Shown here piece after piece: positions 18,698 to 38,966 of a stretch of DNA of 64,000 nucleotides; the first letter of the stretch is position 1; each line of letters starts with the position of its first letter. The notes below the pieces were generated by a model. The model did not search any database, was not told where the DNA came from, and was given only the letters and a program-made list of their open reading frames with translations. Source of the stretch: Eisenbergiella porci (GTDB lineage: Bacteria; Bacillota; Clostridia; Lachnospirales; Lachnospiraceae); NCBI RefSeq assembly GCF_009696275.1, contig NZ_VUMI01000001.1, forward strand, positions 124,001-188,000. The letters are read 5' to 3'. A program made the position numbers and the translations under genes.

Positions 18698-18744
18698 CGT
18701 TTTTTCTCTTCTCCTACTATTCTTACGGTTGGTACAATATGAAT

Positions 18745-20154: not shown

Positions 20155-20233
20155 TAGGCCGTCACCTCCCAAATTCCGTTTGTACCTCTAAATAAATCAA
20201 AGGTTTTTGTCATAGAAACATCTGTTTTCTATT

Positions 20234-20314
20234 CTATTTTGTTATCACAAAACTAAAGATTACCAAAAGAAGCACTGCAAATAATAATCCAGCAATACCA
20301 TAGATATACAGCAT
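20234..20314 (-). CDS. Possible 26-residue single-span membrane peptide
   Basis: ATG at 20314 with GAGGG nine bases upstream opens a 26-codon frame. Its product is almost wholly hydrophobic (MLYIYGIAGLLFAVLLLVIF, then SFVITK). It lies 80 bp before the flippase in the gap between wzy and wzx. Nothing in it identifies a function. It may be a real small membrane protein or the relic of a larger gene. Confidence 0.35.
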   Translation of the reverse strand: MLYIYGIAGLLFAVLLLVIFSFVITK

Positions 20315-20319
20315 AAAGA

Positions 20320-20979
20320 TATTCCCTCAATTTTGCTGACCCTAAAATAGCCCCCATATGATATTGTTCTGAGGAATACCAAGGGGTTACATTTCACTAT
20401 AGGAAGCTACTATTTATATCATAAAATATAATCAGTAGTCCTATTAATAAAATCATTGTGGCATCCATTCCATAATCAATTCCAAACACTAAAACTACAT
20501 ATAAAAGTAATATAGAAGAGCAACACCGTGGTTTAAATATTTATAAAATCACAATGGCTACTATATTGGTAATCATTTATGTAACGTATCAATGAACAGA
20601 ATCAATATATGGACTGCCTTTAAATCCATTCAAGAAAGTAATATTTAACAGTTATTAAATTAGACTTACAATCCTTTTTGGAATATAACCAGCTTGTTTT
20701 CTTTGAAATGAAGGTTATTGATATGACCCAGGAATCCAAAACTTAATATTTTATGATAGAATTCATCACTATGTTCATACATGAATAACTCAAATTACAT
20801 ATTCTCAGCACAAATTAACCTGCATTACAAAATATATATACACCATGATTACCTTATTTTACGTAGTATTAACATCCCTAAAACTTATTTAAATAGTGAT
20901 ACAACACTACCAACAAGGTACCGATTTCACATAATCTCTCCACTTGATTATTTGCTTGTTCACTACCACTTTCTAAAAT
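20320..20979. other. AT-rich gap between wzy and wzx without a supportable gene
   Basis: About 660 bp are very AT-rich and lack an open frame with a ribosome site. On the minus strand near 20400-20520 a short hydrophobic stretch is readable (LLLYVVLVFGIDYGMDATMI). It may be the relic of a lost membrane protein, perhaps a former acyltransferase or polymerase. No promoter, repeat or terminator convinced me. Confidence 0.3.
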
Positions 20980-22368: not shown

Positions 22369-23460
22369 TTACTCTTCAACTCCCATATGCGTTACTATCT
22401 CATTAATCTTATTTATCCACAATGAAACGATTTTATCTACTGATAATCTTTCTCTGATTTTAACAGCCTGCTTTCCAATTCTCTCCGCTTCATCAGGATT
22501 ATCTGCAATATAAGACATCGCCTCAGCAAGCGCATGTTCATCACCCACAGGCGTCAGTAAGCCATTTTCTTTATCCATAATCATCATACGAGCTCCACCT
22601 ACAGGGCAATCTGTACATATACAAGGCAAGCCTATCCCCATCGATTCAATCATTGAATTTGATATTCCCTCATAGTCGGATGAAGATACAAACATTGCAC
22701 TTTTTAATATGCATTCATGAATATTCACTGTAAAGCTTCTAATTTCCATATACTCCTTAATATTTAACTCTTTTGCAAGCTGTATTAGGGAATCTTTCAA
22801 CTCTCCCTCACCATATATAATCAACTTATAGTTTGAATGAGATGCATGAAAATTTGCAAATGCGCGGATTAGCAAAGTTAAATTCTTCTGTCGATTTAAT
22901 CGACAGAAATTTACTATTTCCTTTTCTCGTATGCCTTCCCAACGTTCTGGTAGATTTTCTTTTATAGGATTAGGAATGATACTTCCTTTTTTCTGTATTG
23001 ACTTACAGAAATATGCTCTGGCATCTTCCGTCTGAAATACCATGCCCGTAGCAAACCTGTAAGCAATATCACGAATTTTTCTTACTACCGCCGATTCTGG
23101 CGCAACACTTGGGTCAGTTCTCTCTGAGCCTATAATCCGAGCATTCATGAACGCAGATGCAACCACAGTATAGATCGTAACGTAAGAACCGAACGAAAGC
23201 ATTACATCATACTTTTCGTGCCTGATTATTTTTCTGAACTCTTTCACCTTTTTTAGAACTCGTCCGGCTCTATTTTTATTCTTATCATGATATAAAACAT
23301 GAAGAACCACATCCTTATCAACGAAATAATTACATCTTCCATCTTTTGTTGCTATAATATGAACTTCATGTCCATCCTGTGTTAAATAATTAGATAAATT
23401 ATTTACAACTCTTTCTATACCACCAGTTTCAAGATTAGCTGATATAAATGCAATTTTCAT
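22369..23460 (-). CDS. GT4 glycosyltransferase
   Basis: This 363-residue GT-B enzyme has an N-terminal acceptor domain with ANLETGGIERVVNNLS, the glycine-rich loop of GT4 enzymes. The donor site reads EGISNSMIESMGIGLPCI, the family E-x7-E motif. It is probably a retaining transferase using a nucleotide sugar on the cytosolic membrane face. Its ATG overlaps the stop of the FrhB-like gene (ATGA), so translation is coupled. Sugar specificity is unknown. Confidence 0.88.
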   Translation of the reverse strand: MKIAFISANLETGGIERVVNNLSNYLTQDGHEVHIIATKDGRCNYFVDKDVVLHVLYHDKNKNRAGRVLKKVKEFRKIIRHEKYDVMLSFGSYVTIYTVVASAFMNARIIGSERTDPSVAPESAVVRKIRDIAYRFATGMVFQTEDARAYFCKSIQKKGSIIPNPIKENLPERWEGIREKEIVNFCRLNRQKNLTLLIRAFANFHASHSNYKLIIYGEGELKDSLIQLAKELNIKEYMEIRSFTVNIHECILKSAMFVSSSDYEGISNSMIESMGIGLPCICTDCPVGGARMMIMDKENGLLTPVGDEHALAEAMSYIADNPDEAERIGKQAVKIRERLSVDKIVSLWINKINEIVTHMGVEE

Positions 23461-24635
23461 TTAGCTATCCTCTTAATTTTTTTTAAAATTCCCATTCGAT
23501 AAAATAGCGGTTTAAATATTTGAGTCAGTTTTTTCTTAATAGTCAAAGGAAAATATTTTTTATTCAGTTCAGGTATCGTCATAGCATCTAAATCTACAAA
23601 GAATTGATTTCGAAGCGGATTAGCCGAAGCGCTAGTCGTTATCATATCTCCATCGTTACAAATCAATTTTTCTGGATTAACTGATTTCATTTTCCAATTT
23701 TTGCTTATAATTGATATTAGCCGTTTTCCCTTTTCGCTTTGTATGATGAGTGCTGTTGTTCCACGATCATCATCCATTTCAGGACAAAATTCATTTACAT
23801 CCCAGCAGTCAAATATTGTAAAATCACTTACACGCTTTTTTGACTTAAAATGGCATTTATGGCAACTTGGTCTCATAGATAAACCAGCAAACATCGTATT
23901 CTTATAAAACTGGAGCAATGGCTCACGACTATACTCGCTACCATTCTCAAACATTAACCGCATCGTGGATCCACTGTAACCATATTTCTTACTGCGAAAT
24001 TCCACTTTAATAAAGTTACATTTTTTGTATTTTCTCCACCATTCCTTATATTTTTCCCATAGTTTTGGAGACGGTACGCCATGACAGGCAATATCTACAG
24101 TAATTAATTTATCCCACTCCTTTTTCAAGTAGCTTTTTAATCCGGAAACTTGACAAGGCGTGCCACTAAACAAAACCCATTCTCCAATGGACAGTTTGTT
24201 TTGTATCTGGAGATATACACTATCCATTGTACTTTGTACATATTTTGATCCTCTGAACCTACTGAGTTCTTCAAATGTACGTACCCCAACATGATGAACA
24301 GAGTAGTTTTCATCAAATGCCGCGCCATACACTGTACCATTATTTGAAATAATGAACTCTGCTATCGCTGTGAATCCTCCCCCTGAAGAACTTGACTCAC
24401 GAATATTTTTACGAATATCTTGAACCACATAAGCGTCAATAATATCACCACTGGGAGTATCCTTTTTTACCGGACAAACGTTTTCGCATGTCCCGCAGTT
24501 AATGCATTTAATCTCATTTACATTTGGATATAAAAATCCCTCTTCATCCTGCTGTATCTCTATACATTGAACTGGACAGGAATTTGCACATGCAGTACAA
24601 CCGCAGCAATCAGTCTTTTCGTTTATTTTAATCAT
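23457..24635 (-). CDS. FrhB-like iron-sulfur protein of polysaccharide loci
   Basis: The protein has 392 residues from the ATG at 24635, which shares its A with the stop of the upstream gene. The N-terminus has two 4Fe-4S motifs: CCGCTACANSCP and CINCGTCENVCP. The remainder matches the F420 hydrogenase/dehydrogenase beta-subunit family (FrhB N and C domains), with a GGGFTAIAEFI segment. Such proteins commonly sit beside polysaccharide pyruvyl transferases in capsule loci, as here. They are thought to act in redox modification of a sugar or its ketal; the reaction is not established. Confidence 0.85.
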   Translation of the reverse strand: MIKINEKTDCCGCTACANSCPVQCIEIQQDEEGFLYPNVNEIKCINCGTCENVCPVKKDTPSGDIIDAYVVQDIRKNIRESSSSGGGFTAIAEFIISNNGTVYGAAFDENYSVHHVGVRTFEELSRFRGSKYVQSTMDSVYLQIQNKLSIGEWVLFSGTPCQVSGLKSYLKKEWDKLITVDIACHGVPSPKLWEKYKEWWRKYKKCNFIKVEFRSKKYGYSGSTMRLMFENGSEYSREPLLQFYKNTMFAGLSMRPSCHKCHFKSKKRVSDFTIFDCWDVNEFCPEMDDDRGTTALIIQSEKGKRLISIISKNWKMKSVNPEKLICNDGDMITTSASANPLRNQFFVDLDAMTIPELNKKYFPLTIKKKLTQIFKPLFYRMGILKKIKRIAK

Positions 24636-25819
24636 CAATCTTCACCTGCCGCATTTATATGATTTGGCTCTTTAAGCATGTTGCATACCTTATCCAGATA
24701 TACTTCTGAATCTATACGCAGATTTTTTAATTTATTTAGAACTGGAGCAAAATCTATATCTTCTTCATACCAGTTCAATATATCTCCTCTCTGCGAAACC
24801 AGTCTTGATTCAAGACCCAGTTTACGGAGTATAGAAAAAAGACGACTGTTCATACTTGCCTTGTCATCAACCTTATATCTGTCAAAAACAAAAAAAAGCT
24901 TTTGATACTGAATTGAAAATACTGTTGCATGAAAGGAGTCAGTACAAATGAACTCAGCATGTCGGATCAGATTCACAAATTCGCTAGGCCCCACTTTCAA
25001 ATATTCCTTGTCTACCATAAAATAATCTGATTTAGCCAACTCGTCCACAAAAGGAATACCTATCACTTTGAGTCCTGTGTTCTTTGAAAGCCTTTTCACT
25101 GCATCTCTATGTCCTGGTGATGCTCCAACAAAATATGCAAAAATATATTTATCCTCACATTCTCTATGATCGATAATTAATGAATTCCAGTCTTCTGCAT
25201 CTAATAGGAGAGTCGGATCGACTACTACCGGTACATCTTTGCCTATGAGCCTTTTTACAATCTGAGCTCCAGAATCTTCTCTAACAGAAATCTGATCGAT
25301 GGCCTTTAAATAATTTTTAGTTCGTCTTATCTGATAATTAGGTATCTGTGAAACCCCAAAACTAGATGCATAAGTAACCTTTAGCTTATTTTTAGGACAA
25401 AACAATAAGGTATAAAAATCACTTCCTAAATTCATAGGATTCCACACCTGATCACTGCCTAAAATGAAAGCTCTATACTTCTTTGTTCCTTCTATCAAAG
25501 ATTTTCTACCATCATATTCCTCCGAAAATACCAACTTTTTTTTCACAAACTCAGAAAAGGAACTATGGCGTGCCCGCATGACTGAGTTAACATCTTTGTC
25601 TAATTTGGCGTATATACTTCTCTTTAAAGTATTAATTTTTGCTTTAAGAAGAGGCATATTAAAAACTCGTAATAGCTGTTTTACACCGTTCCTTTTTTTA
25701 TATAAAATAATCTCGTTGTTAATTCCTTTCCGAAAAAGTACGCTCTGGAAAGCAAATGCTTGTAATATACTTCCGTAATTAAAGTTCCGGACTGATACTA
25801 ATCCAACTATGTCGTCCAT
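24635..25819 (-). CDS. Polysaccharide pyruvyl transferase family protein
   Basis: This 394-residue protein begins with VRNFNYGSILQAFAFQ, the opening motif of PF04230, and contains ILGSDQVWNP and CTDSFHATVFSI. These are the conserved pieces of CsaB/WcaK-type enzymes, which transfer pyruvate from PEP to a sugar as a ketal. Start and stop codons overlap its neighbours by one base each. Pyruvylation would add negative charge to the polymer. Pairing with the FrhB-like gene is a recurring arrangement. Confidence 0.87.
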   Translation of the reverse strand: MDDIVGLVSVRNFNYGSILQAFAFQSVLFRKGINNEIILYKKRNGVKQLLRVFNMPLLKAKINTLKRSIYAKLDKDVNSVMRARHSSFSEFVKKKLVFSEEYDGRKSLIEGTKKYRAFILGSDQVWNPMNLGSDFYTLLFCPKNKLKVTYASSFGVSQIPNYQIRRTKNYLKAIDQISVREDSGAQIVKRLIGKDVPVVVDPTLLLDAEDWNSLIIDHRECEDKYIFAYFVGASPGHRDAVKRLSKNTGLKVIGIPFVDELAKSDYFMVDKEYLKVGPSEFVNLIRHAEFICTDSFHATVFSIQYQKLFFVFDRYKVDDKASMNSRLFSILRKLGLESRLVSQRGDILNWYEEDIDFAPVLNKLKNLRIDSEVYLDKVCNMLKEPNHINAAGED

Positions 25820-26937
25820 TAGTCCTGCTCCTTTACCTCTTCATATCGCCTTAGATAATAGTTTTCCAAATTCTGTGCCAAAAATGGCACATCAAAGCCG
25901 GCTTTCTTTATCTCTTCATAAGTGTTTTTACGAGCATATCTATTTGTAAAGCAATTAATTTTTTCTGCCCAAGTCTGTGGCGTCTCTTGTAAGGAAAGTG
26001 CAATGACTTCATCTGTAATACGTGCAATTTCAGGTATTACATCAGAACATACCATTTTAAGCCCAGCAGCCTGCGCTTCAATTCCAACTATCCCAAGGCC
26101 TTCATATAAGGACGGGAGTACAAAAACATCCATTGCTTGATATAACCTAGTGACATCACTTCTTACTCCTAAAAACATAACTCTATCTTTTATCCCAAGT
26201 CGGAACACTTTTTTTTCTATTTCAGGGCGGAGTTCTCCCTCCCCTACACTTAGTAATATCGCTTTGTCATTAATTTTAGTTAACTCATAGAACACGTCTA
26301 CCAGGAAGTTATGGTTCTTTTGTGTATTGAATCGTCCTATATGGCCAACTACAAAATTGTCTTCTATTCCAAGTTCTTTTCTTATATCTTGTCTCACATT
26401 TTCATCATACACAAAGTTTCTTGCATCAATTGCATTCTGGATTACCCAACAAGAACGATCACCAAATAGGTACTTTCCGGATTTCTCTGAACAAGCCATG
26501 TATTCTGTAGCATAATACTTAAATGGCTTATTCATTAAATTCTTAATGAACCCACGGATCGATGGATCCACCTGATCATTATGGCTATGTGCAATTCTAA
26601 CAGGAATGCCTGCTTTTTTTACATAGGGCATATAAAACATAGCGAAGCTTTCCATATGGGCATGAACAATCTTATACTCATTATGTTCTTTGAAAAATCT
26701 ATCTAAATCAAACAAATACTTTATGAAGTTTTTATCTTCACGCACTGACAAACGGTATATTCTTCCTCCCAAACTTTCTATCTCATCATCATAAAACTGC
26801 CTCTCCGAATAATGTACGAGAAAATCAAATTGAACCTTTGTTCTATCTATATTACGATACATATTCATAATGAAGGCTTCTATGCCAGCACAATGCATTT
26901 TGTATGTAATGTGCAATATTCTTATTGGTTCATTCAT
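25819..26937 (-). CDS. GT4 glycosyltransferase (EpsF-like)
   Basis: This 372-residue GT-B protein has the N-terminal pattern HITYKMHCAGIEAFIMNMYR typical of EpsF/CapM-like GT4 enzymes. Donor-site residues are visible in VLPSLYEGLGIVGIEAQAAG, and an IGRFNTQKNH loop binds phosphate. It probably extends the lipid-linked oligosaccharide. It sits three bases after the SDR epimerase and overlaps the pyruvyl transferase. The substrate is not predictable here. Confidence 0.88.
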   Translation of the reverse strand: MNEPIRILHITYKMHCAGIEAFIMNMYRNIDRTKVQFDFLVHYSERQFYDDEIESLGGRIYRLSVREDKNFIKYLFDLDRFFKEHNEYKIVHAHMESFAMFYMPYVKKAGIPVRIAHSHNDQVDPSIRGFIKNLMNKPFKYYATEYMACSEKSGKYLFGDRSCWVIQNAIDARNFVYDENVRQDIRKELGIEDNFVVGHIGRFNTQKNHNFLVDVFYELTKINDKAILLSVGEGELRPEIEKKVFRLGIKDRVMFLGVRSDVTRLYQAMDVFVLPSLYEGLGIVGIEAQAAGLKMVCSDVIPEIARITDEVIALSLQETPQTWAEKINCFTNRYARKNTYEEIKKAGFDVPFLAQNLENYYLRRYEEVKEQD

Positions 26938-26940
26938 GTT

Positions 26941-27903
26941 TTAGTTCCTTTCATATTTCCTTATCCATTTCAGCGTTATCCTCACCCCTTCGAGCCTTGA
27001 ATACGGCATTTCAGGTGCAATTTTATACGTATTAGTCATGTCATTAATTCCATCGTTTGTCATATTCCCATATCTAAAGGATTGCATTGGAAAGTGAATG
27101 GCAAATAATCCAAGTAAATCGCCAAATTTAGCGAGCCACTTCGCAAAACATACCGGCATCGTGGGAACTATAAAGCCAAGCTCATTAGCAATTTCATCTG
27201 CCCATTCATTAATCTCATAGGCAGGCTCATCTCCAATATAGAATACCTTGTTATCTTTTTCTGGAGTACTGTTAAAAAGCAGCTGTTCAATCTGATACAC
27301 TGCATTGCCAATATATCCATATGTTTTATAACATTCAATATGACCTATGTGAAAATACATCCTCCTCATGACCATATCAAAGAAGTTCCGGTATGGAACG
27401 CCAAACCACGGCCCCCAGATAGAGGTGGGGCGGATGATGCACCAGTCACACTTGGGCTGATCCCTCCATACTTTCTTTTCTGTTTCGACTTTACTCTCAC
27501 CATATTTTGTGTGTGGGCAATAATCAAACTGATTTTTAACCTTGTAATTATTGCGTGTTACAAATTTGGAGGAAGCAATAACAACTTTCTTTAGATTTGG
27601 AATCTCATGAATTATCCTCATCAGGTTTTCTACACCTGTGATATTGGCATCATAATCTGCAAGAGTCTTACCATCTAAATCTGTCCTTGCTGCAAGATGT
27701 AATAAATAATCCGGGGCAAATTCCAGCACAGATTCCCGGAACTTCTTATAGTTGCAAATATCAATTTTCTTCCAGACAGATTTTCTTTCAGGAATTTTCG
27801 GTTCTTTCCAGTCTATATTTAAAACTTCATATCCTTTATCAATTAAATCCTCTAGGATATTTGTGCCAATAAAGCCAGAGGCTCCAGTTATAAGAATTTT
27901 CAT
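26941..27903 (-). CDS. NAD-dependent nucleotide-sugar epimerase/dehydratase
   Basis: This 320-residue extended SDR enzyme has a Rossmann motif GASGFIG at 7-13 and a YxxxK pair in TKYGESK. A Ser-rich strand VIASSKFV stands where the catalytic Ser/Thr lies. Members oxidise and epimerise or dehydrate nucleotide sugars. The C-terminal substrate domain is not one I can assign to a particular sugar. It lies between two glycosyltransferases, so it probably supplies one of their donors. Confidence 0.85.
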   Translation of the reverse strand: MKILITGASGFIGTNILEDLIDKGYEVLNIDWKEPKIPERKSVWKKIDICNYKKFRESVLEFAPDYLLHLAARTDLDGKTLADYDANITGVENLMRIIHEIPNLKKVVIASSKFVTRNNYKVKNQFDYCPHTKYGESKVETEKKVWRDQPKCDWCIIRPTSIWGPWFGVPYRNFFDMVMRRMYFHIGHIECYKTYGYIGNAVYQIEQLLFNSTPEKDNKVFYIGDEPAYEINEWADEIANELGFIVPTMPVCFAKWLAKFGDLLGLFAIHFPMQSFRYGNMTNDGINDMTNTYKIAPEMPYSRLEGVRITLKWIRKYERN

Positions 27904-27914
27904 CTCATATCCAC

Positions 27915-29180
27915 CTATAATTTTAATATTTCTTCAGAGTACCTATTGACGCTTACGGTTCTAGTTAGTTTTTCTTCCAGGAATTTACGTCCACGCATAC
28001 CCATTTTCTTTTCTTCATCACTATTGGCATTCTCTATATACCAACGAATGATATTTGCAACCTCAACATAATCTCCAGGCTCACAACATTTCCCACAGTT
28101 ACAGTCTTCAATCAGACCTCTAACTTCAGTGCCACTCTCTAGCACTCCGATGATTGCCTTACCAGCTGCCATAATGCCATAGGCTTTGGATGGGCAACTC
28201 ACACCCTTGATGCCCTTTGCATTCACACACCAATGAATATCTCCTGCGTTAAGGCTATAGATTAAATCTGCTTTGTCTTGGTACGGAATAAACACTACAT
28301 TTTTCATTTGATGATCTTTTACATAAAGAGTCAGCTTATCTAATACAGTTCCTGCACCTACAAAGGCAAAAATAATTTCTCGATCATCTGTTGTTTTATC
28401 TTCTGGCCTAAAGTGTTCGATTACTTTAATTAAATTCTCAAGGTCATAATATAATCCAATATTACCGGAATACATGATGACAAATTTTCCGTCCAGTCCA
28501 TACTTCTTCTTGAATTCCACTACTTTCGGATGTTCTTCCGGCAATGGGTAAATTTCTTTTCCATCCGTCCAGTTGTTAATCATCACAGTCTTGGGAACTT
28601 TCTTTCCTTTGAAACGATTTTCTACAGTTTCCACAAGGTCACGTCCTACTGTAATAATCAGACTACTTTGCATGCAACTGAACTTATCAAACCACATCAT
28701 TGCATCAGTGATAAGTCTGTTTTTACTATAACCAACCGCAAGAACCTGTTCAGGATTGAAATCTTGGATATTATAAATATACTTAGCACGTTTAACCCAC
28801 TTACCCCATACACCAAGCAAACCACCCAGAATCGGTGGCTGAGAAATAGAGAATACATAATCCATCTTCCCAACCTTGAAGGTAGCTGCTATTGCTCCGA
28901 AAAAATAAGACACAATATTTTTAATGCGGCTTTTTTTATTGGCTTTTCTGAACTCTGGCACTCTGATGCGTAGTACATTCACACCATTGATATTATCTTT
29001 ATAATATTTTTGAGTTTTATATTTATCTTCAATCGTACCAAGATAAGACGGAACCACGCAAATAACTGTGATATTAAACTTATCAAGCATTCCTTCCGCA
29101 AGTTCGCGGAGGATCTGTCCCGTTGATGCGGGGTCTGGTATGTAATAATGCGCATATATCAAAAGGTTTTTTTTTGCCAT
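27915..29180 (-). CDS. GT4 glycosyltransferase (WcaI/WbuB-like)
   Basis: ATG 29180 is chosen over 29216 because AGGAGGAG stands just upstream. The product has 421 residues. It opens LLIYAHYYIPDPASTGQILR, as in WcaI/WbuB transferases, which often act on fucosamine or related sugars. The C-terminal domain contains YSGNIGLYYDLENL and a later SCPSKAYGIMAAGKAI donor loop. It is probably one of the first transferases after the lipid-linked initiating sugar; this is inference from position and family. Confidence 0.87.
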   Translation of the reverse strand: MAKKNLLIYAHYYIPDPASTGQILRELAEGMLDKFNITVICVVPSYLGTIEDKYKTQKYYKDNINGVNVLRIRVPEFRKANKKSRIKNIVSYFFGAIAATFKVGKMDYVFSISQPPILGGLLGVWGKWVKRAKYIYNIQDFNPEQVLAVGYSKNRLITDAMMWFDKFSCMQSSLIITVGRDLVETVENRFKGKKVPKTVMINNWTDGKEIYPLPEEHPKVVEFKKKYGLDGKFVIMYSGNIGLYYDLENLIKVIEHFRPEDKTTDDREIIFAFVGAGTVLDKLTLYVKDHQMKNVVFIPYQDKADLIYSLNAGDIHWCVNAKGIKGVSCPSKAYGIMAAGKAIIGVLESGTEVRGLIEDCNCGKCCEPGDYVEVANIIRWYIENANSDEEKKMGMRGRKFLEEKLTRTVSVNRYSEEILKL

Positions 29181-29220
29181 CTCCGCAGCTCCTCCTCTAT
29201 TTCTTCCCGCATGCATTTAA

Positions 29221-30471
29221 TTAATCCCTGCCGAACAGGTCCCTCGTATAAATCTTATTCTTCACATTATCCAGGCATTTATCATATCTGTTAGCGATTA
29301 TTGCCTGTGACATATTTTTGAATTTTTCCAGATCATTCACAACAACTGAACCAAAGAATTTCTCACCATCTTTAAGTGTCGGCTCATAAATAACCACAGT
29401 TGCTCCTTTGGCTTTAATTCTCTTCATGGCACCCTGAATGGAACTCTGCCGGAAGTTATCTGAATTACTCTTCATTGTCAAACGATATACACCAACAATT
29501 ATTTCCTTCTCTCGGTTCTCGTCCCAGCTATCATTGGTGCTATACGCCCCTGCAATCTCCAGTACACGGTCAGCTATAAATTCTTTTCTAGTCCGATTGC
29601 TCTCCACGATTGCCTCTATCAAGTTTTCAGGTACGTCAGAATAATTGGCCAGAAGTTGTTTGGTATCTTTCGGTAAACAGTATCCACCATAGCCAAAAGA
29701 CGGATTGTTGTAGTGCATTCCGATTCTTGGATCTAAACAAACACCTTCTATGATTTGCTGTGTGTTCAATCCTTTCGATTCAGCGTAGGTATCAAGTTCG
29801 TTGAAATACGCTACCCTGAGTGCTAGATACGTGTTGGCGAATAATTTAACAGCCTCGGCTTCAGTAAAACCCATAAACAGAGTATTTATATTCTCCTTGA
29901 TTGCGCCCTCTTGGAGCAGTTTGGCAAATATCTCCGCAGCCTTTACCAGCCTAGTATTATCCATATCCGTTCCCACAATTATCCTTGACGGATACAAGTT
30001 GTCATATAAAGCCTTGGATTCACGAAGGAACTCTGGACTAAAAATGATGTTGTCACAGTGGAACTTTTCACGTACTGACATCGTATACCCTACTGGGATG
30101 GTACTCTTGATGACAATAATGGCTTCCGAATTGTACTCAATCACTAGCCTGATCACAGCTTCGACAGCGCTTGTATCAAAAAAATTCTTCTTACTGTCAT
30201 AGTTTGTGGGAACTGCAATTACCACAAAATCTGCTTCAAAATATGCTTCCTTTGCATCCAACGTAGCCGTCAAATCCAGATCCTTCTCGGCCAGATACTT
30301 CTCGATATAGTCATCCTGAATAGGTGACTTCTTATTGTTGATTAACTCAACCTTCTTAGGAATAATGTCCACAGCCGTTACTTTGTGGTGCTGTGCTAAA
30401 AGTATGGCTATGGATAGGCCAACGTAACCAGTACCTGTAACAGCAATCTTCAAATTCTTAAAGTCTCTCAT
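29221..30471 (-). CDS. ugd: UDP-glucose 6-dehydrogenase
   Basis: The 416-residue protein starts [13 protein letters not shown], the NAD-binding motif. Catalytic Cys is in [11 protein letters not shown], and [11 protein letters not shown] and FSPEFLRES are both present. It oxidises UDP-glucose to UDP-glucuronate with two NAD+. The adjacent epimerase at 30546-31610 probably converts the product to UDP-galacturonate. The polymer is therefore expected to contain uronic acid. Length is typical of the shorter bacterial Ugd group. Confidence 0.95.
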
Positions 30472-30545
30472 AATCGTTTTTCTCCTCGTTACTCTACAGC
30501 ATATTTACTGTGGTCAGTTCCCTCACACTAGCCTACTGGCTACTT

Positions 30546-31610
30546 TTACAAATAAAATTCCTTATACCATTCAGTAAACCGCCGTAATCCCTCACGTAGA
30601 CTCGTACTTGGCTTAAATCCAAAGTCTCTCTCCAAGGCACTCGTATCTGCATATGTTACCGGAACATCACCCGGCTGCATCGGTACAAGCTCCTTGTGCG
30701 CTTCAAAATCATAGTCCTCTGGTATTACCCCCACTCTTACTAGTTCTTCACTCAAAATCTGCACAAAGTCCAATAAATTTTCCGGGCTGTTATTGCCAAT
30801 GTTGTAGATCTTATGCGGTGGTAACGGTAGACCATCTTCACCTTTCTCTCTATCTGGTGCTTTCTGTATCACACGTACAATACCCTCGACAATGTCATCT
30901 ATATAGGTAAAATCACGTTTGCAGTTGCCGTAATTGAAAATCTGAATTGTCTTGCCTTCATGTAACTTGTTTGTGAACCCAAAATATGCCATGTCCGGAC
31001 GTCCTGCCGGACCATAAACAGTAAAAAATCGAAGTCCTGTAGACGGTATGTTGTATAATTTAGAATAGGCATGTGCTAAAAGCTCGTTACTCTTTTTAGT
31101 AGCTGCATAAAGACTTACTGGATTGTCCACTTTATCGTCGGTACTATAAGGCACCTTCTTATTGGATCCATACACGCTGGAAGAGCTTGCATAGACCAAA
31201 TGTTCTACACCAGTGCATCCTCCATCATAAGAATGACGGCACACTTCTAGAATGTTATAAAAACCGATCAGATTGCTCTCAATGTATGCATCAGGGTTGG
31301 TTATGGAATATCTAACACCAGCCTGTGCTGCAAGATTTACCACTATCTGTGGCTTATACTTTTCAAAGATTTCTGTAATCAACTCCTTATCCGCGATGCT
31401 TCCCTTCACAAAAATAAATGAAGGCCTCTCAGATAGTTCTGCCAACCTTGCGTCCTTCAGTCTAACGTCGTAATAATCATTCATATTGTCGATGCCAATG
31501 ACAGTTACTTTTTCCACATCCGCGAAGAGACGCTTTACCAGATTTGCCCCAATGAATCCGGCTACGCCTGTGACCAATATTGTTTTGCCTTTTAAATCCA
31601 CACAACTCAT
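30546..31610 (-). CDS. UDP-glucuronate 4-epimerase (CapI/GalE-like SDR)
   Basis: This 354-residue extended SDR enzyme has GVAGFIG at 15-21, the block NLAAQAGVRYSI, a Ser-rich strand SSSSVYG and catalytic Tyr in YAATKKSNE. AGVRYSI together with RFFTVYGPAGRPDMA is characteristic of UDP-glucuronate 4-epimerases (CapI, LpsL). The ugd gene next to it supplies the substrate. It is the first gene of the AT-rich half of the capsule locus. Confidence 0.9.
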   Translation of the reverse strand: MSCVDLKGKTILVTGVAGFIGANLVKRLFADVEKVTVIGIDNMNDYYDVRLKDARLAELSERPSFIFVKGSIADKELITEIFEKYKPQIVVNLAAQAGVRYSITNPDAYIESNLIGFYNILEVCRHSYDGGCTGVEHLVYASSSSVYGSNKKVPYSTDDKVDNPVSLYAATKKSNELLAHAYSKLYNIPSTGLRFFTVYGPAGRPDMAYFGFTNKLHEGKTIQIFNYGNCKRDFTYIDDIVEGIVRVIQKAPDREKGEDGLPLPPHKIYNIGNNSPENLLDFVQILSEELVRVGVIPEDYDFEAHKELVPMQPGDVPVTYADTSALERDFGFKPSTSLREGLRRFTEWYKEFYL

Positions 31611-32580: not shown

Positions 32581-33408
32581 CTATTCCACCTTTACAACCA
32601 ATTCTCTCGTCTCTGACCTGTTCCCATCCGAATCCACCGTATACAATGTCACCGGATATTCCCCGGGCCTGCTCAGATCCACATGTCCTTCCAGCTTCAG
32701 GTTATTATAAAGCGTATTATAATCATCTTTATCGTCCGACATCGTCTCTATTACCGTATTCCAGTTCGGTGCAGTTCCTTTTTTAGTAACAATCTCATCG
32801 GAATTCATCACCAGTACAGGAGCAGGACCCGACTGTTCTTCATTTCCGTCTCCAGCTTCCCTGTTTTCGTCTCCGGCATTTTCTTTCCCGCCGTTTTCAT
32901 CCCCGGCATTTCCATCCTGCTGTGTATCTTTGGCATCGCGGTTATCCGCAGCCCCGCCATCCTCAGAGCTGTTATCCTCCGCCGAATCATCTCCCATTAC
33001 CGCACCTGATTCCGTCTCATCCTGACTCATTCCATTTCCATCGTCCGTCTGCATTTCGTCCCCATCGGGCGCAGCAGCAGATCCTGAAGCAACCGCAAAC
33101 ACCTTCGATGCCTTGCCCACATTATTGGATTGATCCAGTGCTACAAACGTTACGATCACTTCTTTTCCGTTTGTTCCAGCTACCTTTTCCACCATCAGGC
33201 TATTGCTCACATCTCCGTCTCTGTCATCCATCGGTGTTACTTCCTGCAGCAGGAGACTCTCGTCCATCCCGTCTTCATAGACCGCCGTACTATCGCCAAA
33301 GGATATCACTGGCGGCGTTCTGTCCTTCCCCAGATACAGGAACAGGCATACAACAAGAAGGACAGCATCCACAATCCCTATTCCAATTGCCAGTTTTTTT
33401 ATTTCCAT
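32581..33408 (-). CDS. Single-span exported protein with Ig-like domains
   Basis: The 275-residue protein has one membrane helix at about 5-26, so the rest lies outside the cell. Residues 30-105 resemble a bacterial Ig-like/DUF5011 repeat (TPMDDRDGDVSNSL, VALDQSNNVGKAS). An acidic low-complexity linker of Asp, Glu, Gly and Asn follows. A second Ig-like domain ends the protein (YPVTLYTVDSDGNRSETREL). The gene overlaps the end of the kinase gene by 10 bp. It may anchor or organise the polymer at the surface, which is inference. Confidence 0.8.
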   Translation of the reverse strand: MEIKKLAIGIGIVDAVLLVVCLFLYLGKDRTPPVISFGDSTAVYEDGMDESLLLQEVTPMDDRDGDVSNSLMVEKVAGTNGKEVIVTFVALDQSNNVGKASKVFAVASGSAAAPDGDEMQTDDGNGMSQDETESGAVMGDDSAEDNSSEDGGAADNRDAKDTQQDGNAGDENGGKENAGDENREAGDGNEEQSGPAPVLVMNSDEIVTKKGTAPNWNTVIETMSDDKDDYNTLYNNLKLEGHVDLSRPGEYPVTLYTVDSDGNRSETRELVVKVE

Positions 33409-34394
33409 TTTTTCTCCCCTCCTGCTTCCTCCGGTTCTTCCAGCATTTCTATTTCAGCTTCCTCTAACTGCACGATATCCACATCCAGCTGTATCATGTC
33501 ATCTTCTTCATACAGACCTTCCGCTTGTTCCTCCCCGGAATCTCCGACAGCCAGTTTCACATTTCCGTCAGCCTTTGCCGCAGCCCTGCCTTCGTGCCCT
33601 TTCAAACCTGCGCCATTCTCTTCCTGCTTCTGCCCGGTCTTTACCGGTTTCAGCCCCTTCTGCACTACTGCAGAATGCAGTCCGCCTTCCTCATTCCCTC
33701 CGTAATACTTTCCATAATACTTCCCATAATATTTTCCATAGTAAGCGCCATAATACCCTTTGCCGCTCATATTCACCTTATTCAGTATCACTCCCAGGAT
33801 CCGGCAGTCCACCTTCTCCAGCTGCTCCTTCACCTTCTGCGCAAACTTATAGCTGATTGCGCCGCTTTCAATCACAACTACCGTTCCATCGCAATACTGT
33901 GCGGCAACCGCCCCGTCAATTACGCTTCCCAGCGGCGGCGTATCTACAATCACATAATCGTATTCATTCCGCAGATATTCCAGCAGCAGACGAAATGCAT
34001 CGTTCCCCAACAGTTCACTGGGATTAGGCGGTACCGGGCCGGAAAAAATAACAAAGAAGTTCTCAATATTTGTCCTGCATGTAATATCCTGAATTGAGGC
34101 CTGCCCGCTCAAATAATGAGACAGTCCGTACCTGGAAGCATTCGTCTTGTATCTTCCCTTCAGCACTGATTTTCTCAAGTCTGCATCTACAAGGACCACC
34201 CGCTTGCCGCCTTCCGCAACCGACAGTGCCAGCTGAAAGGAGACGCTGGTCTTTCCTTCATTCGGCGTACAGCTGGTTACAGAAATCACCTTCCTGTCCC
34301 TGCCGGAAAATTCCAGGTTCGTCCGCAGTGTCTTATAGCTTTCCTTCGTCCGGAAATCCAGTTTCTCTATTGCATTAAAATTTACCGTCTGCAT
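33399..34394 (-). CDS. cpsD: CpsD-type tyrosine autokinase (BY-kinase) with acidic tail
   Basis: The 331-residue cytosolic protein has Walker A SCTPNEGKTS at 41-50, Walker A' VVLVDADLR at 66-73 and Walker B YVIVDTPP at 147-154. A tyrosine cluster at 214-231 has five YY pairs with the repeat YYGKYYGKYYG. These tyrosines are the usual autophosphorylation sites. About 95 further acidic residues follow; typical CpsD/EpsB proteins end at the cluster. Activated by CpsC and reset by the CpsB phosphatase, it controls polymer length and export. Confidence 0.93.
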   Translation of the reverse strand: MQTVNFNAIEKLDFRTKESYKTLRTNLEFSGRDRKVISVTSCTPNEGKTSVSFQLALSVAEGGKRVVLVDADLRKSVLKGRYKTNASRYGLSHYLSGQASIQDITCRTNIENFFVIFSGPVPPNPSELLGNDAFRLLLEYLRNEYDYVIVDTPPLGSVIDGAVAAQYCDGTVVVIESGAISYKFAQKVKEQLEKVDCRILGVILNKVNMSGKGYYGAYYGKYYGKYYGKYYGGNEEGGLHSAVVQKGLKPVKTGQKQEENGAGLKGHEGRAAAKADGNVKLAVGDSGEEQAEGLYEEDDMIQLDVDIVQLEEAEIEMLEEPEEAGGEKKWK

Positions 34395-34509: not shown

Positions 34510-35247
34510 CTAGCTTCTTTTTACTTTCTTCTTTTTCTTTTTTCCTTCGCTTTCCCCTTCATTTAACGGAATTACCGCCAACGTAGAAAGCTGCAGATAC
34601 TTCTCCACATCCTCCGGGGTTTTCACCGTGTCATCCATCAGGTAACGGACCAGCACAACAGCGATTATCAGAAATACTCCAAGCAACCCGCCAATAAGCG
34701 TATTCTTCAATACGCTGGGACTCGCCTTTTTCATCGGCATATTTGCAGTCTCCGCCACATTCACCGCCTGGATGTCCATCACGTTCATGATATGTACTGC
34801 GGCAGCCTCCCGGATCGCATTGGCCATTTTCATCGCCATCACCGGGTCGGAATCTTTCACTGTAATCGCCAGAATACGGGTATCCGTCGGCGTAGTAACC
34901 GAAACCTTCTCCTTCATCTGCTCATACGTCAGATCCAGCCCCATCCCCTGCACTACTTCTTCTAAGACAAACCGGCTCTGGATCAGTTCCGCATAGTCCT
35001 TCGTCAGCTGTGTCCCAAGCTGGATATCCGAATAAGTAACCGAAGCATTCTCCTGTTTATTCAATATATATATCTTAGTAGTGGACTCATAAGTAGGTGT
35101 CACCAGCAGCTGCGTAAAGAGAAAAGCGCCCAGCGCCACCATGATTCCCACGGAAATAATCAATGCCAGATTATGTATCAGCACCAGACAGATTTCCCAT
35201 AAATCAATCTCAATTTCATCCGTCTGGCGTATTGTATTCTCTTCCAT
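34510..35247 (-). CDS. cpsC: CpsC/Wzz chain-length regulator and kinase activator
   Basis: The protein has 245 residues with membrane helices at about 22-46 and 180-203. Between them is the Wzz extracellular domain, with the conserved YESTTKIYILNKQ stretch. The second helix is preceded by a Pro-rich MPMKKASPSVLKN segment, as in the family. The short Lys-rich cytoplasmic C-terminus should contact the kinase encoded 115 bp downstream. Together they make the Gram-positive two-protein form of Wzc. Confidence 0.92.
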   Translation of the reverse strand: MEENTIRQTDEIEIDLWEICLVLIHNLALIISVGIMVALGAFLFTQLLVTPTYESTTKIYILNKQENASVTYSDIQLGTQLTKDYAELIQSRFVLEEVVQGMGLDLTYEQMKEKVSVTTPTDTRILAITVKDSDPVMAMKMANAIREAAAVHIMNVMDIQAVNVAETANMPMKKASPSVLKNTLIGGLLGVFLIIAVVLVRYLMDDTVKTPEDVEKYLQLSTLAVIPLNEGESEGKKKKKKVKRS

Positions 35248-35393: not shown

Positions 35394-36161
35394 CTAAATC
35401 ACCCTGTCCTCCAGTACCGCCTGCGGGTTCCCAATCAAAAGCTTATCTGCATAATCCTTCCCAAGCCTTTTCTGTATCCATTCGGCACATTCTCTCAGGC
35501 GAGGGCTCCGCCTGCCTTCACTCCGGTGGGCGTCCGTCCCTACAAAATCAACGGCTCCCTGCTTCAACAGCTTCCTTGCAATCGCTTTTTCTCCAAATCC
35601 ATAATCCCCCATGACGCTCGCTGCATTTATCTGAAAATAACACCCGGTATCCTCTTTCAGCTCCTCTGCTTTCTGCAGATTCTTCACTACATTCATGTAT
35701 CTCTCCACATGTGCCACCACCGGCCAGTATCCAAAAGAAATAAGCCGGTTTAAAGCATCCCGTATATATCCAAAGTCCTCTCCGGGCAGGAATTCCACCA
35801 ATACATAATGAGAATCCGCCAGTGTCCTGATTTTTCCAAGCTCCAGCAGTTCTCCCAGCCCATGTCTGTAAAAAATTTCATTTCCCGGAAACAGTTTTAC
35901 CGGAATTTCTTTTTTATCCGCCTCTTCCTGAAGCAGAACCATCCGCCTGATAATTCCTTCCGGAGTGACGCATTTTCTGTCCGCCTTCTGGTGAGGTGTC
36001 AGAATCATTTTCCGGATACCTTCCTCTGCCGCAATCCTCAGCATGTCCAGCGCCATCTCCATCGTTTCCGCCCCGTCATCCACCATCGGCAGCACATGGC
36101 AATGAATATCAGTAAATCCCTGAATATTTTCTAACCCCTGGATATTCTCTATTCCACCCAT
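35394..36161 (-). CDS. cpsB: CpsB/CapC tyrosine-protein phosphatase (PHP family)
   Basis: The 255-residue protein has the PHP metal motif TDIHCHVLPMVDDGA at about 17-31. Further His residues lie in ILTPHQK, VAHVERYM and FVGTDAHRS. Manganese-dependent PHP phosphatases of this type dephosphorylate the CpsD tyrosine cluster. The N-terminus includes a short repeat, GLENIQG after GIENIQG. It starts six bases after the XRE regulator ends, so both are on one transcript. Confidence 0.93.
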   Translation of the reverse strand: MGGIENIQGLENIQGFTDIHCHVLPMVDDGAETMEMALDMLRIAAEEGIRKMILTPHQKADRKCVTPEGIIRRMVLLQEEADKKEIPVKLFPGNEIFYRHGLGELLELGKIRTLADSHYVLVEFLPGEDFGYIRDALNRLISFGYWPVVAHVERYMNVVKNLQKAEELKEDTGCYFQINAASVMGDYGFGEKAIARKLLKQGAVDFVGTDAHRSEGRRSPRLRECAEWIQKRLGKDYADKLLIGNPQAVLEDRVI

Positions 36162-36166
36162 ACCAA

Positions 36167-36571
36167 CTATTCCATCCCGTCCTCTTCCTTCAAACCCACA
36201 TCACTGCAGGCAATCAAAAAAGTCCGCAGCACCTTCGCCGCATACATCCGCTCCCGCTTCGAAACATTATTCAGCAGTTGATACACCGCCTCTGTTTCTT
36301 CTGCCGATACCTTTTCCCTGTCATCCTCATCTCCCTGCTCATTCTCCGTCTCTTTCCCAAGAATCAGAAAATCCAAAGACATATGGTACAGTCTGGAAAT
36401 TGCGATCATCGTTTCCACCGACATCCCGCAGTTTCCCCTTTCAATGTCCGCATAATAAGTAGGCACACGTCCCAGCTGTTCCGCGGCTTCCTTCATTGTG
36501 ATTCCCAGCTGTCTGCGTTTCTCACGGATCCGCTTTCCAGCCGCTTTTCTGTCGTACGTATCTTTTTCCAT
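36167..36571 (-). CDS. XRE-family transcriptional regulator at head of capsule operon
   Basis: ATG 36571 is preferred, with GGAAGGTGG upstream; a TTG at 36610 gives a longer frame. The product has 134 residues. A Cro/C1 helix-turn-helix lies at about 10-65 (RIREKRRQLGITMKEAAEQL, then YYADIERG). The acidic C-terminal region is of unknown role. It is the first gene of the capsule operon and lies directly after the invertible segment. It may tune the operon or the switch. Its own targets are unknown. Confidence 0.85.
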   Translation of the reverse strand: MEKDTYDRKAAGKRIREKRRQLGITMKEAAEQLGRVPTYYADIERGNCGMSVETMIAISRLYHMSLDFLILGKETENEQGDEDDREKVSAEETEAVYQLLNNVSKRERMYAAKVLRTFLIACSDVGLKEEDGME

Positions 36572-36663: not shown

Positions 36664-36734
36664 AAAAAACAGTTCCGGCAGTTTATTTTCGCTAAATCTA
36701 TCCTTTTGCGAAAAAGAACCGCCGGAGCTGTTTT
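36664..36734 (-). terminator. Intrinsic terminator whose loop contains the left recombination site
   Basis: AAAACAGTTCCGGC at 36666-36679 and GCCGGAGCTGTTTT at 36721-36734 form a 14-bp stem with one mismatch. On the minus strand it is followed by a run of six T. An inner stem TTTTCGC/GCGAAAA lies in the loop. It would stop leftward transcripts from the recombinase side before they reach the XRE/capsule genes. One arm is inside and one outside the predicted invertible segment. Confidence 0.8.
36685..36718 (-). repeat. Left inverted recombination site (candidate)
   Basis: Read on the minus strand, these 34 bp match the plus-strand site at 38350-38383 at 27 of 34 positions without gaps. TTTTCGCA and AAGGATAGA are identical. 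Short inverted arms (TTTTCGC, GCGAAAA) flank an asymmetric centre, as in tyrosine-recombinase core sites. The two sites point toward each other, so recombination would invert the DNA between them. Confidence 0.75.
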
Positions 36735-36764
36735 CTACACTTCTGTTGAATTATTGACCATTTT

Positions 36765-36775
36765 TTTGACGGCTT
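36765..36775 (+). repeat. Direct repeat TTTGACGGCTT, left copy
   Basis: TTTGACGGCTT recurs at 38111-38121 in the same orientation. The wider 27-bp windows (TGAC-N7-TTTGACGGCTT-N-T) agree at 19 positions. This copy lies about 50 bp inside the left recombination site. It may be an arm-type binding site for the recombinase or an operator for a regulator. Confidence 0.5.
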
Positions 36776-36858
36776 CTTAAAACCTGTCTGCTTGATAATA
36801 CGGAATTCCGACCTTTTTATATTTTATGGCCGGATACGTCTGGAAAAACAGGCATGAC

Positions 36859-36900
36859 AAAAAAACTTCCGTAAAGGTTCCATTCAACCTGTACCGGAAG
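36859..36900 (-). terminator. Intrinsic terminator of the recombinase gene
   Basis: On the minus strand CTTCCGGTACAGG pairs with CCTTTACGGAAG around a 10-nt loop. Seven T follow at 36865-36859. It lies eight bases after the recombinase stop codon. Confidence 0.88.
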
Positions 36901-36907
36901 CGGTTCT

Positions 36908-38083
36908 TCAGGCCGCCATTTTATATCCTGACATCAGCATTTTTTTCCGTTCCATATCCGAGTGCACATAAATACGCATAGTCGTGCCCACATTGGAATG
37001 TCCCAGCAGCTCACTCAGCGTCTTCATGTCAAATCCCTGGGAAATACAGTTTGTGGCAAAAATATGGCGCAGCATATGGAAATTGAAGCCTGGAATCCCC
37101 AGTTTTTTCAGGATTGCCTGAAAACGGTACTGCAGCGTCCGCGGTTCCGTATATTCCTTCCTTATCCCCTTCAGTACATAGCCTTCCTCAGATATTTGGC
37201 CGCTTTTCCTGGCGGTTTTCAGCAGTTCCACAAGGAATCCCGGCAGAGGGATCTCCCGGATGGAATTCCTGGATTTCGGCGTGGTTATAATCACCCTGGT
37301 TCCGGTTTTTCCCGCCATGCCAGCTTCGTCTGTGGAGGAAAAAGTGCGTATTCTCTGCATTGTTTTGCGTACTATGATGCTTTCTTTTTCTAAATCAATG
37401 TCTTTCCACTGCAGTGCGCAAAGCTCGCCAATCCGGATTCCGCTGCAGCCCGACAGCAGCACCCCCAGGCTGGTCAGATCTCCTTCCTGTGCGCTTTTTA
37501 TAAGGTGTTCCTCCAGTTTTTTAAGTTCGCGCCCTTCCGGCGGCTGTGGAATCTGTGTTTTAGCCGGGGAGGTAACCGAGGGCAGCTCCGGTCTGTTGCA
37601 GCGGAATTTTTTCCCCAGGAAATGAAAAATCTGGCTGAGCAGGATGAAAATCTGATGAAGATAGGTTTCGGACAGCTTTTTTTCCTGCGCTGTGCAGGCC
37701 TGTCCGCGCAGGCCTTCAAAATAAGCGCGCCAGGCTTCCTCATCAAAACCGGAAACCGCCTGTCTGCCAATGACTGGCAGGATATGTTTCTCCACAATGG
37801 AACGGTAGGTAGCTAATGTGGATTCCTTCCATTTCGTCTGATTCTCCTCCATCCACAGGCGGACGGATTCCCGGATCGTAAGCCCCGGCGGCAGCGTATT
37901 TTCTTTTCCGCCTGCAAGGCAGGCATCTCTCTTTTTAATAAGAAGCTTTTCCTTCACTTCCCTATAGGTTTTCCCGTAAACCGAACGGTATCTGGCTCTT
38001 CCGTCCGGGAGCCTTCCCGCACCATACCTTCCTTCCCATCGACCATCCTTCCTTTTATAAATGTTCTCTCCTTTTCTTGCCAT
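36908..38083 (-). CDS. Tyrosine recombinase (site-specific integrase), probable capsule switch invertase
   Basis: This 391-residue protein has an N-terminal AP2-like arm-binding region (KDGRWEGRYG), a core-binding SAM-like domain at about 70-165 and a catalytic domain at 185-391. The full catalytic set is visible: Arg217, Lys270, His336, Arg339, His362 and Tyr372. The closest type is the Tn916/phage Int group. No excisionase or other mobile-element gene is nearby. It lies inside the predicted invertible segment together with a promoter, so its likely task is inversion rather than integration. GGGAGG precedes the ATG. Confidence 0.9.
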   Translation of the reverse strand: MARKGENIYKRKDGRWEGRYGAGRLPDGRARYRSVYGKTYREVKEKLLIKKRDACLAGGKENTLPPGLTIRESVRLWMEENQTKWKESTLATYRSIVEKHILPVIGRQAVSGFDEEAWRAYFEGLRGQACTAQEKKLSETYLHQIFILLSQIFHFLGKKFRCNRPELPSVTSPAKTQIPQPPEGRELKKLEEHLIKSAQEGDLTSLGVLLSGCSGIRIGELCALQWKDIDLEKESIIVRKTMQRIRTFSSTDEAGMAGKTGTRVIITTPKSRNSIREIPLPGFLVELLKTARKSGQISEEGYVLKGIRKEYTEPRTLQYRFQAILKKLGIPGFNFHMLRHIFATNCISQGFDMKTLSELLGHSNVGTTMRIYVHSDMERKKMLMSGYKMAA

Positions 38084-38110
38084 AATGTCCTCCCAGAATC
38101 TGACGAAAAA

Positions 38111-38121
38111 TTTGACGGCTT
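38111..38121 (+). repeat. Direct repeat TTTGACGGCTT, right copy
   Basis: This copy overlaps the -10 element of the recombinase promoter (38124-38119) and lies 28 bp before its ATG. A protein binding here would affect recombinase expression. The partner copy is at 36765-36775. Confidence 0.5.
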
Positions 38122-38147
38122 ATAAATCAAAAAGGTATCTATGGCAA
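38119..38147 (-). promoter_or_regulatory. Promoter of the recombinase gene
   Basis: On the minus strand TTGCCA (38147-38142), a 17-bp spacer and TATAAG (38124-38119) fit a sigma-A promoter. The start codon is about 30 bp downstream of the predicted start site. Confidence 0.7.
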
Positions 38148-38191
38148 TTTGGGTCCCCGGCTTGTCTGTATATCATTTTTATTTAGTCTTT

Positions 38192-38215
38192 ATACAGGCA
38201 CACTGTCACCTGTAT
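38192..38215. promoter_or_regulatory. Inverted repeat upstream of the outward promoter, possible operator
   Basis: ATACAGG at 38192-38198 and CCTGTAT at 38209-38215 form a perfect 7-bp inverted repeat with a 10-bp centre. No T-run follows on either strand, so it is not an obvious terminator. It lies between the two divergent promoters of the segment, where an operator would be expected. Confidence 0.4.
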
Positions 38216-38268
38216 TATAAATAAGAAACGCAAAAAATGACATTTAAGTATTATTTTATACTCATTAA

Positions 38269-38297
38269 TTGACAAAATATAAAACTTGTCTTACAAT
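38269..38297 (+). promoter_or_regulatory. Strong sigma-A promoter inside the invertible segment
   Basis: TTGACA at 38269-38274, a 17-bp spacer and TACAAT at 38292-38297 are near consensus. It points rightward across the right recombination site into non-coding DNA and a terminator. After inversion it would point at the XRE/cps genes with a leader of roughly 185 nt. Confidence 0.82.
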
Positions 38298-38349
38298 AAA
38301 TTCCAGTGTCGAGTTTAAATTGCCACGAAATACCAGTTTTAAACTTATA

Positions 38350-38383
38350 TTCATTTTCGCATAAGGATAGAATTTACGAAAGC
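38350..38383 (+). repeat. Right inverted recombination site (candidate)
   Basis: This is the partner of 36685-36718 in opposite orientation. The 9-bp centre AAGGATAGA (38363-38371) is identical in both and would allow strand exchange. The segment between the centres is about 1.66 kb and holds the recombinase gene and the outward promoter. Confidence 0.75.
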
Positions 38384-38433: not shown

Positions 38434-38462
38434 AAACAGGCCGAATAAAAGGCCTGTTTTTT
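38434..38462 (+). terminator. Intrinsic terminator beyond the right recombination site
   Basis: AAACAGGCC and GGCCTGTTT form a perfect 9-bp stem with an 8-nt loop, followed by T to 38462. It lies outside the invertible segment and blocks transcription from the outward promoter toward the AI-2E transporter gene. Confidence 0.9.
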
Positions 38463-38966
38463 CAGTATTTCAGGGGATTTTAGAAATCCGGATATGAAGC
38501 CGATTTCTGCGCCGCCCTTTTATCACAAACTGCCGGCAGATAACAAATGTATGTTTTAAACTGACCACAAAAAAATTAATTCCATACAATATAGGTTTAT
38601 GCTTTTTCCAATAATCAATTTCTCCCCTATGAAGTGGGAACAGGAAGCTCCCATGTTAAATCTGTGTAAAAAATTCCCTTTTCATCTTGCCACCCCTTTA
38701 CATATCCTTTACAATGAATAAAAATGGTACTCCGGGAGAAAAATTATCGAATGACAACCAGGCCAGCCGCTCCCCCGCGGCTTGATACACAGGATTTTAA
38801 CGCAGTTCCCATAAAACATGCATAACCTCTGTCCATTATGGCAGGGGCTGTGCTTTTTTTGTATTTCCGGCAAAAAAGCCGGTCTGTCGGTCATGATTTT
38901 TGAATAGACTCAGATAACCGTTTAAATACTGGGTAAACTGATTATAGAAAGGACAAGGCAGGGCGC
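38463..38966. other. Gene-less stretch before the AI-2E transporter
   Basis: No convincing coding frame. Structure is present. A hairpin CCTCTGTCC/GGCAGGGG near 38829-38851 is followed closely by seven T and may be a terminator or attenuator on the plus strand. CCGGCAAAAAAGCCGG near 38868 is a second perfect hairpin. Just before the transporter, GGCAGGGC/GCCCTGCC pairs around the ATG at 38967 and could limit its translation. Confidence 0.35.

Follow-up and report, generated by a model that had tools for sequence, protein, structure and literature searches.

The window, by which we mean the whole 64,000-nucleotide stretch analysed here from the 6.1-Mb genome of Eisenbergiella porci, carries a capsule operon on its minus strand. 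The operon opens with the gene of an XRE-type regulator (36167..36571, minus strand; Pfam HTH_3 match), which would be the first to come under the switch. The best start of this gene is the ATG at 36571, which is preceded by GGAAGGTGGG and is preferred to the TTG at 36610. On the same strand follow cpsB (35394..36161; Pfam CpsB_CapC, 3e-92), cpsC for a Wzz-type chain-length protein (34510..35247; Pfam), cpsD for a polysaccharide tyrosine autokinase (33399..34394; Pfam), and a gene that overlaps the end of cpsD and whose product has weak Pfam matches to Ig-like domains (32581..33408). A gap of 970 nt (31611-32580) with no minus-strand ORF of 60 aa or more separates this cpsBCD part from the polysaccharide assembly genes (17046..31610, minus strand), which encode an epimerase, a UDP-sugar dehydrogenase, glycosyltransferases, a pyruvyl transferase, Wzy, and a flippase. 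One weak minus-strand promoter-like match in the gap (32391-32364) could serve the assembly genes separately, and these genes are regarded only as candidate members of the switched transcript. An Rfam search of window positions 13000-41000 gave no match.

Upstream of the XRE gene, two inverted repeats (36687..36718, plus strand, and 38350..38381, minus strand) enclose a segment in which 1631 nt separates the repeat arms. The repeats are identical at 27 of 32 positions and the pair scores 20.75, compared with a maximum of 11.25 across five shuffles. Within them lie the 27-bp recombination sites, at 36687-36713 and 38355-38381, and all differences between the two sites fall outside the central 9 bp, in agreement with the first-pass annotation, which had described inverted sites with a shared 9-bp centre around approximately 1.66 kb. 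Because the repeats are inverted, recombination between them would invert the segment and not excise it; the segment is thus bounded like an inverton, and it lacks the direct repeats of an excisable integrative element. The plus-strand gene of an AI-2E transporter starts 585 nt beyond the right repeat.

The 27-bp core pattern, which was derived from these same two sites, matched the window twice and 100 shuffles not at all. When up to two mismatches were allowed across the genome, the same two sites were recovered exactly, and the only other match, at two mismatches, was one of these sites read in reverse; the backwards-pattern control also gave three genome matches, and therefore the exact matches alone are meaningful. 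Beyond the window pair, no further copy of the site was found in the whole genome at zero to two mismatches. The idea of a master recombinase serving extra genomic sites was rejected, as there is no additional exact site in the genome. The alternative, inverted junction was sought in the strain's own assembly and was not found, the segment being present there as one copy in one orientation.

The segment encodes a tyrosine recombinase of 391 aa (36908..38083, minus strand; Pfam PF00589 Phage_integrase, 8.4e-27), which is intact and lies between the inverted sites, as the first-pass annotation had noted. Residues R217, K270, H336, R339, H362, and Y372, which we take to be catalytic, are invariant across 10 relatives, so that both the catalytic domain and the conserved residues of the phage integrase family are present. 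Since PF00589 is a tyrosine-class domain and Y372 is invariant, the enzyme does not belong to the serine recombinases. The N-terminus is also conserved, and our guess is that it forms a putative arm-binding domain.

Between the recombinase start and the right repeat lies a promoter of the form TTGACA-17-TACAAT (38269..38297, plus strand), which matches the consensus at 11 of 12 positions and points outward across the right site from a distance of 52 nt. The number of promoter-like matches in the region (8 versus 5.1 ± 1.9 in shuffles) is unremarkable as a count alone. The orientation of this promoter, away from XRE-cpsBCD, had been recognized in the earlier annotation, as had the lack of a good promoter directly before XRE: no minus-strand promoter-like match of at least 9/12 was found between the recombinase and XRE, nor from XRE to 32581. 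Two predicted terminators, both absent from that annotation, add to this picture. One, a hairpin with a T-run at 36856..36901 on the minus strand (-16.1 kcal/mol), would end the recombinase transcript ahead of XRE; the other, also a hairpin with a T-run, lies outside the right repeat at 38435..38463 on the plus strand (-13.9 kcal/mol) and would halt transcription from the outward promoter. Both come from folding, and a simpler terminator scan listed neither. The captured orientation is therefore most likely OFF, because transcription from the outward promoter would run into one predicted terminator and that of the recombinase into the other, ahead of XRE. The absence of promoter-like sequence in front of XRE also supports this assignment, which the first-pass annotation had reached as well. 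When the segment was inverted in silico, the promoter was placed before XRE as had been proposed, with an estimated transcription start (7 nt past the -10 box) 193 nt, instead of the earlier approximately 185 nt, before the ATG at 36571.

The stretches at 36579-36598 and 36711-36730 are 75% complementary; in the captured orientation, read-through RNA might pair along them and so mask the ribosome-binding site of XRE. This fold is stronger than in shuffled sequence both in the window (-56.2 versus -41.1, sd 4.6) and in a relative, L031. Masking by read-through RNA was dropped as an explanation since it was not seen in the other four of the five relatives tested (L032, L033, L034, and L035).

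The same arrangement recurs around related recombinases. A scan of named genomes returned at least 578 relatives, and the best 80 of these were used. The resulting set of 92 loci comprises 75 of the best 80, 16 of 18 further regions, and the window; L049, L050, L089, and L093 (genomes already included) and L068 (28-nt flank) were left out of the best 80, and L047 (no pair) and L048 (weak pair, 16.25) out of the 18 regions. A repeat pair was called when inverted repeats scoring at least 16 lay within 450 nt on each side, a cut-off chosen after first looks at the data. By this rule, the recombinase is located between an inverted-repeat pair in 75 of the 92 loci, compared with 13 of 276 in a mismatched-flank control; the remaining 17 loci have no such pair. 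The 92 loci fall into 64 clusters at 70% identity, 53 of which have a repeat-flanked member, and the segments are 1279-1695 bp long, that of the window being the longest. A second set was obtained from 397 genomes of the family, 47 of which had a relative at 1e-60, and 28 new loci were returned, two of which repeat the first set (L139 is L080, and L150 aligns to L172 exactly like L042). In this set a pair was found in 19 of 28 loci (control, 3/84) and was lacking in nine. Unrelated integrases had a repeat pair in only one of 19 cases (control, 0/57).

Several variations on this architecture were encountered. The window's own genome contains a further cassette of this family (L042, G000:C136, 2946-4356); its 25-bp repeats are identical, its site centre is a different one, and it has an XRE-like neighbour that points outward. 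Four cassettes (L100, L121, L122, and L125) occur within one metagenome bin (NALB_7861_8). The repeats extend to 166 nt in L041 (5657-7347) and to 112 nt in L045 (5750-7179); in L041 the neighbours on both sides are also alike, hinting at exchange between duplicated genes. In L144 (2714-3126) and L145 (2811-3241), a recombinase of the same family has an inverted-repeat segment of 365-385 bp beside its gene and not around it.

A common 27-bp register could be set in 69 of the 75 repeat-flanked loci, the others being dropped either for a better fit at 26 bp (L037, L098, and L128) or for weak arms (L085, L090, and L097). The arms, approximately TTTCGYAAA and TTTRCGAAA, are common to the loci and differ within a pair at 12% of positions. 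Positions 12-17, in contrast, are identical within all 69 pairs, while the core mismatch between loci is 61%; the choice of pairs by match score introduces some bias toward matched centres. Still, the arms tolerate changes never seen in the centres, as predicted for strand exchange by homology. A switch of this kind might have become locked or have decayed in this strain, as could be suspected from the five differences in 32 positions between its sites, the single orientation in its assembly, and the existence of a relative, L172, in which no second site is recognisable. We consider such decay quite improbable: the differences all lie outside the central 9 bp, the arms of other pairs differ as much, and the recombinase is intact with every invariant residue in place.

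Promoters and terminators were compared across the family. The best outward promoter between the repeat and the recombinase start scores 10.2 on average in the 75 loci, compared with 6.1 in shuffled sequence and 6.4 for inward promoters; the excess over shuffled sequence has a p of 1e-13 for the outward direction and 0.12 for the inward direction. L056, L074, L086, and L098 are among the few loci without an outward excess. The second set gave very similar means (outward 9.8, shuffled 6.0, inward 6.3; n=18). An outward terminator within 250 nt beyond the promoter-side repeat was predicted in 37 of 71 loci versus 5 in shuffles, whereas beyond the other repeat the count was 10 of 73 versus 5. A terminator after the recombinase was predicted in 22 of 75 loci (4 in shuffles).

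Neighbouring genes were taken from codon-scored calls, as longest-ORF calls were misled by antisense ORFs. Classed by the first neighbour, the recombinase faces the sole outward gene in 31 of the 75 loci and is reversed in six, while 18 loci have outward genes on both sides and 20 are unclassed; these neighbour and orientation classes carry some error because the codon-scored calls missed an XRE gene in L033 that tblastn detected. Counted by cluster, the ratio is 24 to 4. L071, one of the six reversed loci, itself carries both orientations. Under a switch model, most classed copies of the family look OFF. The same counts could be read the other way, with the captured state being ON: a single transcript from a promoter of the recombinase would cover both the recombinase and XRE-cps, and the two would be separated by flipping. 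Recombinase and operon share a direction in the window, as they do in 31 of the 37 loci that are clearly one-sided, which agrees with this arrangement, as does the finding of a hairpin terminator after the recombinase in just 22 of 75 loci. We nevertheless judge it unlikely, since the window has a terminator of -16.1 kcal/mol after the recombinase, inward promoters are no better than shuffled sequence in both sets while outward ones exceed it strongly, and outward terminators are concentrated on the side away from the operon (37/71 versus 10/73). Read-through from the recombinase into cps is accordingly disfavoured by the terminator and the unenriched inward promoters, and we retain the OFF assignment for the captured window.

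Comparison of segment orientation among related assemblies, which the first-pass annotation had proposed as a check, revealed opposite orientations with breakpoints at the repeats. When L108 is aligned with L109 and L112 (705-2033 with 5812-7140 and 5801-7140, respectively), the segments match on the plus strand over the whole distance between the repeats, while the flanks on both sides match on the minus strand, with an identity of 74-80%. Likewise, a flank that lies on one side of the segment in L172 lies on the other in L042 and L150, with 80% identity in the flank and 69% in the segment. In L172 the recombinase is kept and the second site is not recognisable; the divergence of sites beside a persisting recombinase, which the earlier annotation had counted against a switch, is therefore found in this one relative. 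In L071, from the isolate assembly of Lachnospiraceae bacterium 28-4 (5628-8845), a 1509-bp segment is present in both orientations, 99.87% identical, around a gap of 200 N, and the two outer flanks adjoin one and the same end of the segment. At the start of the L121 contig, the first repeat is preceded by 35 nt from the opposite outer flank (1-55), so that both inversion junctions are found in one contig, and the contig of L056 ends exactly at a repeat (4758-4785). Mixed populations would fit these three patterns best; a true inverted duplication, in L071, or an assembly error is possible. The segment is found in both orientations in relatives, and in one orientation only in the assembly of this strain. 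Together with the matched site centres, the opposite orientations in relatives and the assemblies holding both orientations support the inversion switch proposed in the first-pass annotation.

Reversed segments between like flanks also speak against a small mobile element whose repeats would be ends or attachment sites with no switching function. The recombinase does belong to the integrase superfamily, the family precedes unrelated operons, and a virus collection yielded 65 contig stretches with relatives, with a repeat pair in six of the 10 that were checked. Such an element is very improbable, however, given that the repeats are inverted, which implies inversion and not excision, that the sites match within loci and not between them, and that outward promoters and one-sided terminators are conserved; the model was set aside on account of the inverted repeats and the reversed segments. 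Mobility of the cassettes over evolution is possible and compatible with a switch.

The genes beside the cassettes are diverse. CpsB, CpsC, or CpsD kin adjoin at least 12 of the 75 segments. The recombinase faces them in nine (the window, L031, L033, L035, L053, L059, L072, L099, and L111) and faces away in three (L036, L037, and L110); in L036 and L037 the opposite orientation adjoins cpsB. The capsule link is kept in two other species whose recombinases are 59-61% identical (L031 and L033). Pfam searches identified a LytR_cpsA_psr protein with a weak sortase match beside L071 (kin in L073 and L074), a helicase beside L051 (kin in L061 and L095), a VWA protein (L117), a GHKL kinase (L107), a dynamin (L079), and XRE regulators (L032, L036, and L113). 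In L127 (5865-11842), the cassette precedes genes for BrxA and BrxC of a BREX system (Pfam) and the captured promoter points away from them, so this defence operon would be OFF as captured. L117 (814-11769) has large proteins of 1595 and 1412 codons, one of them with the VWA domain, pointing outward on both sides of the cassette, which is a possible two-way toggle. In a tally of 84 of the 129 outward neighbours, HTH_3 occurred seven times, CpsB, GHKL, and Wzz four times each, and LytR three times; most neighbours belong to no repeated family.

Taken together, these data make it probable that the window segment is a self-contained invertible promoter cassette before capsule genes, captured OFF. 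In the proposed mechanism, which is built from sequence features, the recombinase made inside the segment would act on the two inverted 27-bp sites and flip the 1.66-kb segment, its own gene included. In the ON state, the outward promoter would read across the left site into XRE-cpsBCD. In the captured OFF state, its transcript would cross the right site and run into a terminator, and that of the recombinase would be stopped short of XRE by a separate one. Capsule expression would then vary among the cells of a single clone. We infer inversion in this strain, the activity of the promoter and terminators, and the effect on the capsule, including the link of XRE-cpsBCD to capsule amount; XRE could act as a repressor, so the ON state need not mean more capsule.

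For the family as a whole, we lean toward an undescribed and widespread group of one-gene, self-flipping promoter cassettes in Clostridia, in which a tyrosine recombinase and an outward promoter lie between 27-bp dyad sites in 1.3-1.7 kb. They would constitute a portable phase-variation module placed before capsule, LytR, BREX anti-phage, helicase, and regulator genes, with some acting as two-way toggles between divergent operons and most being caught OFF. Within the mainly open-access journal literature covered, titles and abstract openings on recombinase-bearing invertons of Lachnospiraceae or Eisenbergiella, on capsule or Firmicutes inversions, and on BREX with phase variation contained no description of such a cassette. 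In gut Bacteroides, phase variation of the capsule through inverting promoters is a familiar phenomenon, and the Lachnospiraceae are a major group of gut Firmicutes; a one-piece capsule switch, if true, would extend Bacteroides-type bet-hedging to them. The recombinase family and the site rule (shared arms and a free but matched centre) provide a signature for finding switches in any genome and for listing their targets, among them defence systems like BREX. In anaerobes, so compact a design might also be put to use as a tool for two-state expression.

Among known systems, Salmonella Hin is a serine recombinase that controls flagellin, and Mpi of Bacteroides fragilis is a serine-type master recombinase that acts in trans on at least 13 regions, its segments lacking the enzyme; the window, in contrast to both, has a tyrosine recombinase, which unlike Mpi is encoded inside the segment, and it differs from Hin also in having capsule genes. 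What it shares with Mpi, as far as the available text of PMC5903667 describes it, is the control of capsule operons by promoter inversion in a gut bacterium. The RecV switches of Clostridioides difficile resemble the window in combining a tyrosine recombinase with inverted repeats that control neighbouring genes in a clostridial gut bacterium, but RecV acts in trans on several loci and is encoded outside the segments, whereas the window enzyme lies inside; this comparison is one of layout and not of sequence (PMC5903667, available portion). In the portion of PMC11892184 available, a clostridial inverton group (139), 32 of whose 33 members are in Clostridia, is linked to a tyrosine-type invertase group (35), and its orientation shifts were measured in reads. 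Invertase group 35 is possibly the same recombinase family as that of the window, compared by description only. The two examples of group 139 printed in that portion are approximately 0.25 kb and therefore too short to hold the enzyme, which must lie outside, a layout shared by L144 and L145 (PMC11892184). A putative 844-bp segment near the fimbriae of Providencia stuartii, as outlined in the same partial text of PMC5903667, resembles the window in being invertible and enclosing a recombinase gene, and differs in its fimbrial context, its phylum, and its imperfect repeats of 14 bp. The Hin gene likewise sits inside its invertible segment and, as portions of PMC5903667 and PMC9368917 describe, recombinase and outward promoter are both contained in the segment, so that flipping connects or disconnects a neighbouring operon. 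The suggestion of the first-pass annotation that one segment carries both its recombinase and the capsule promoter thus holds for the anatomy and is not without precedent, given Hin and the Providencia segment (PMC5903667, in part). By this analysis, the arrangement in the window is, in principle, that of Hin with a tyrosine enzyme.
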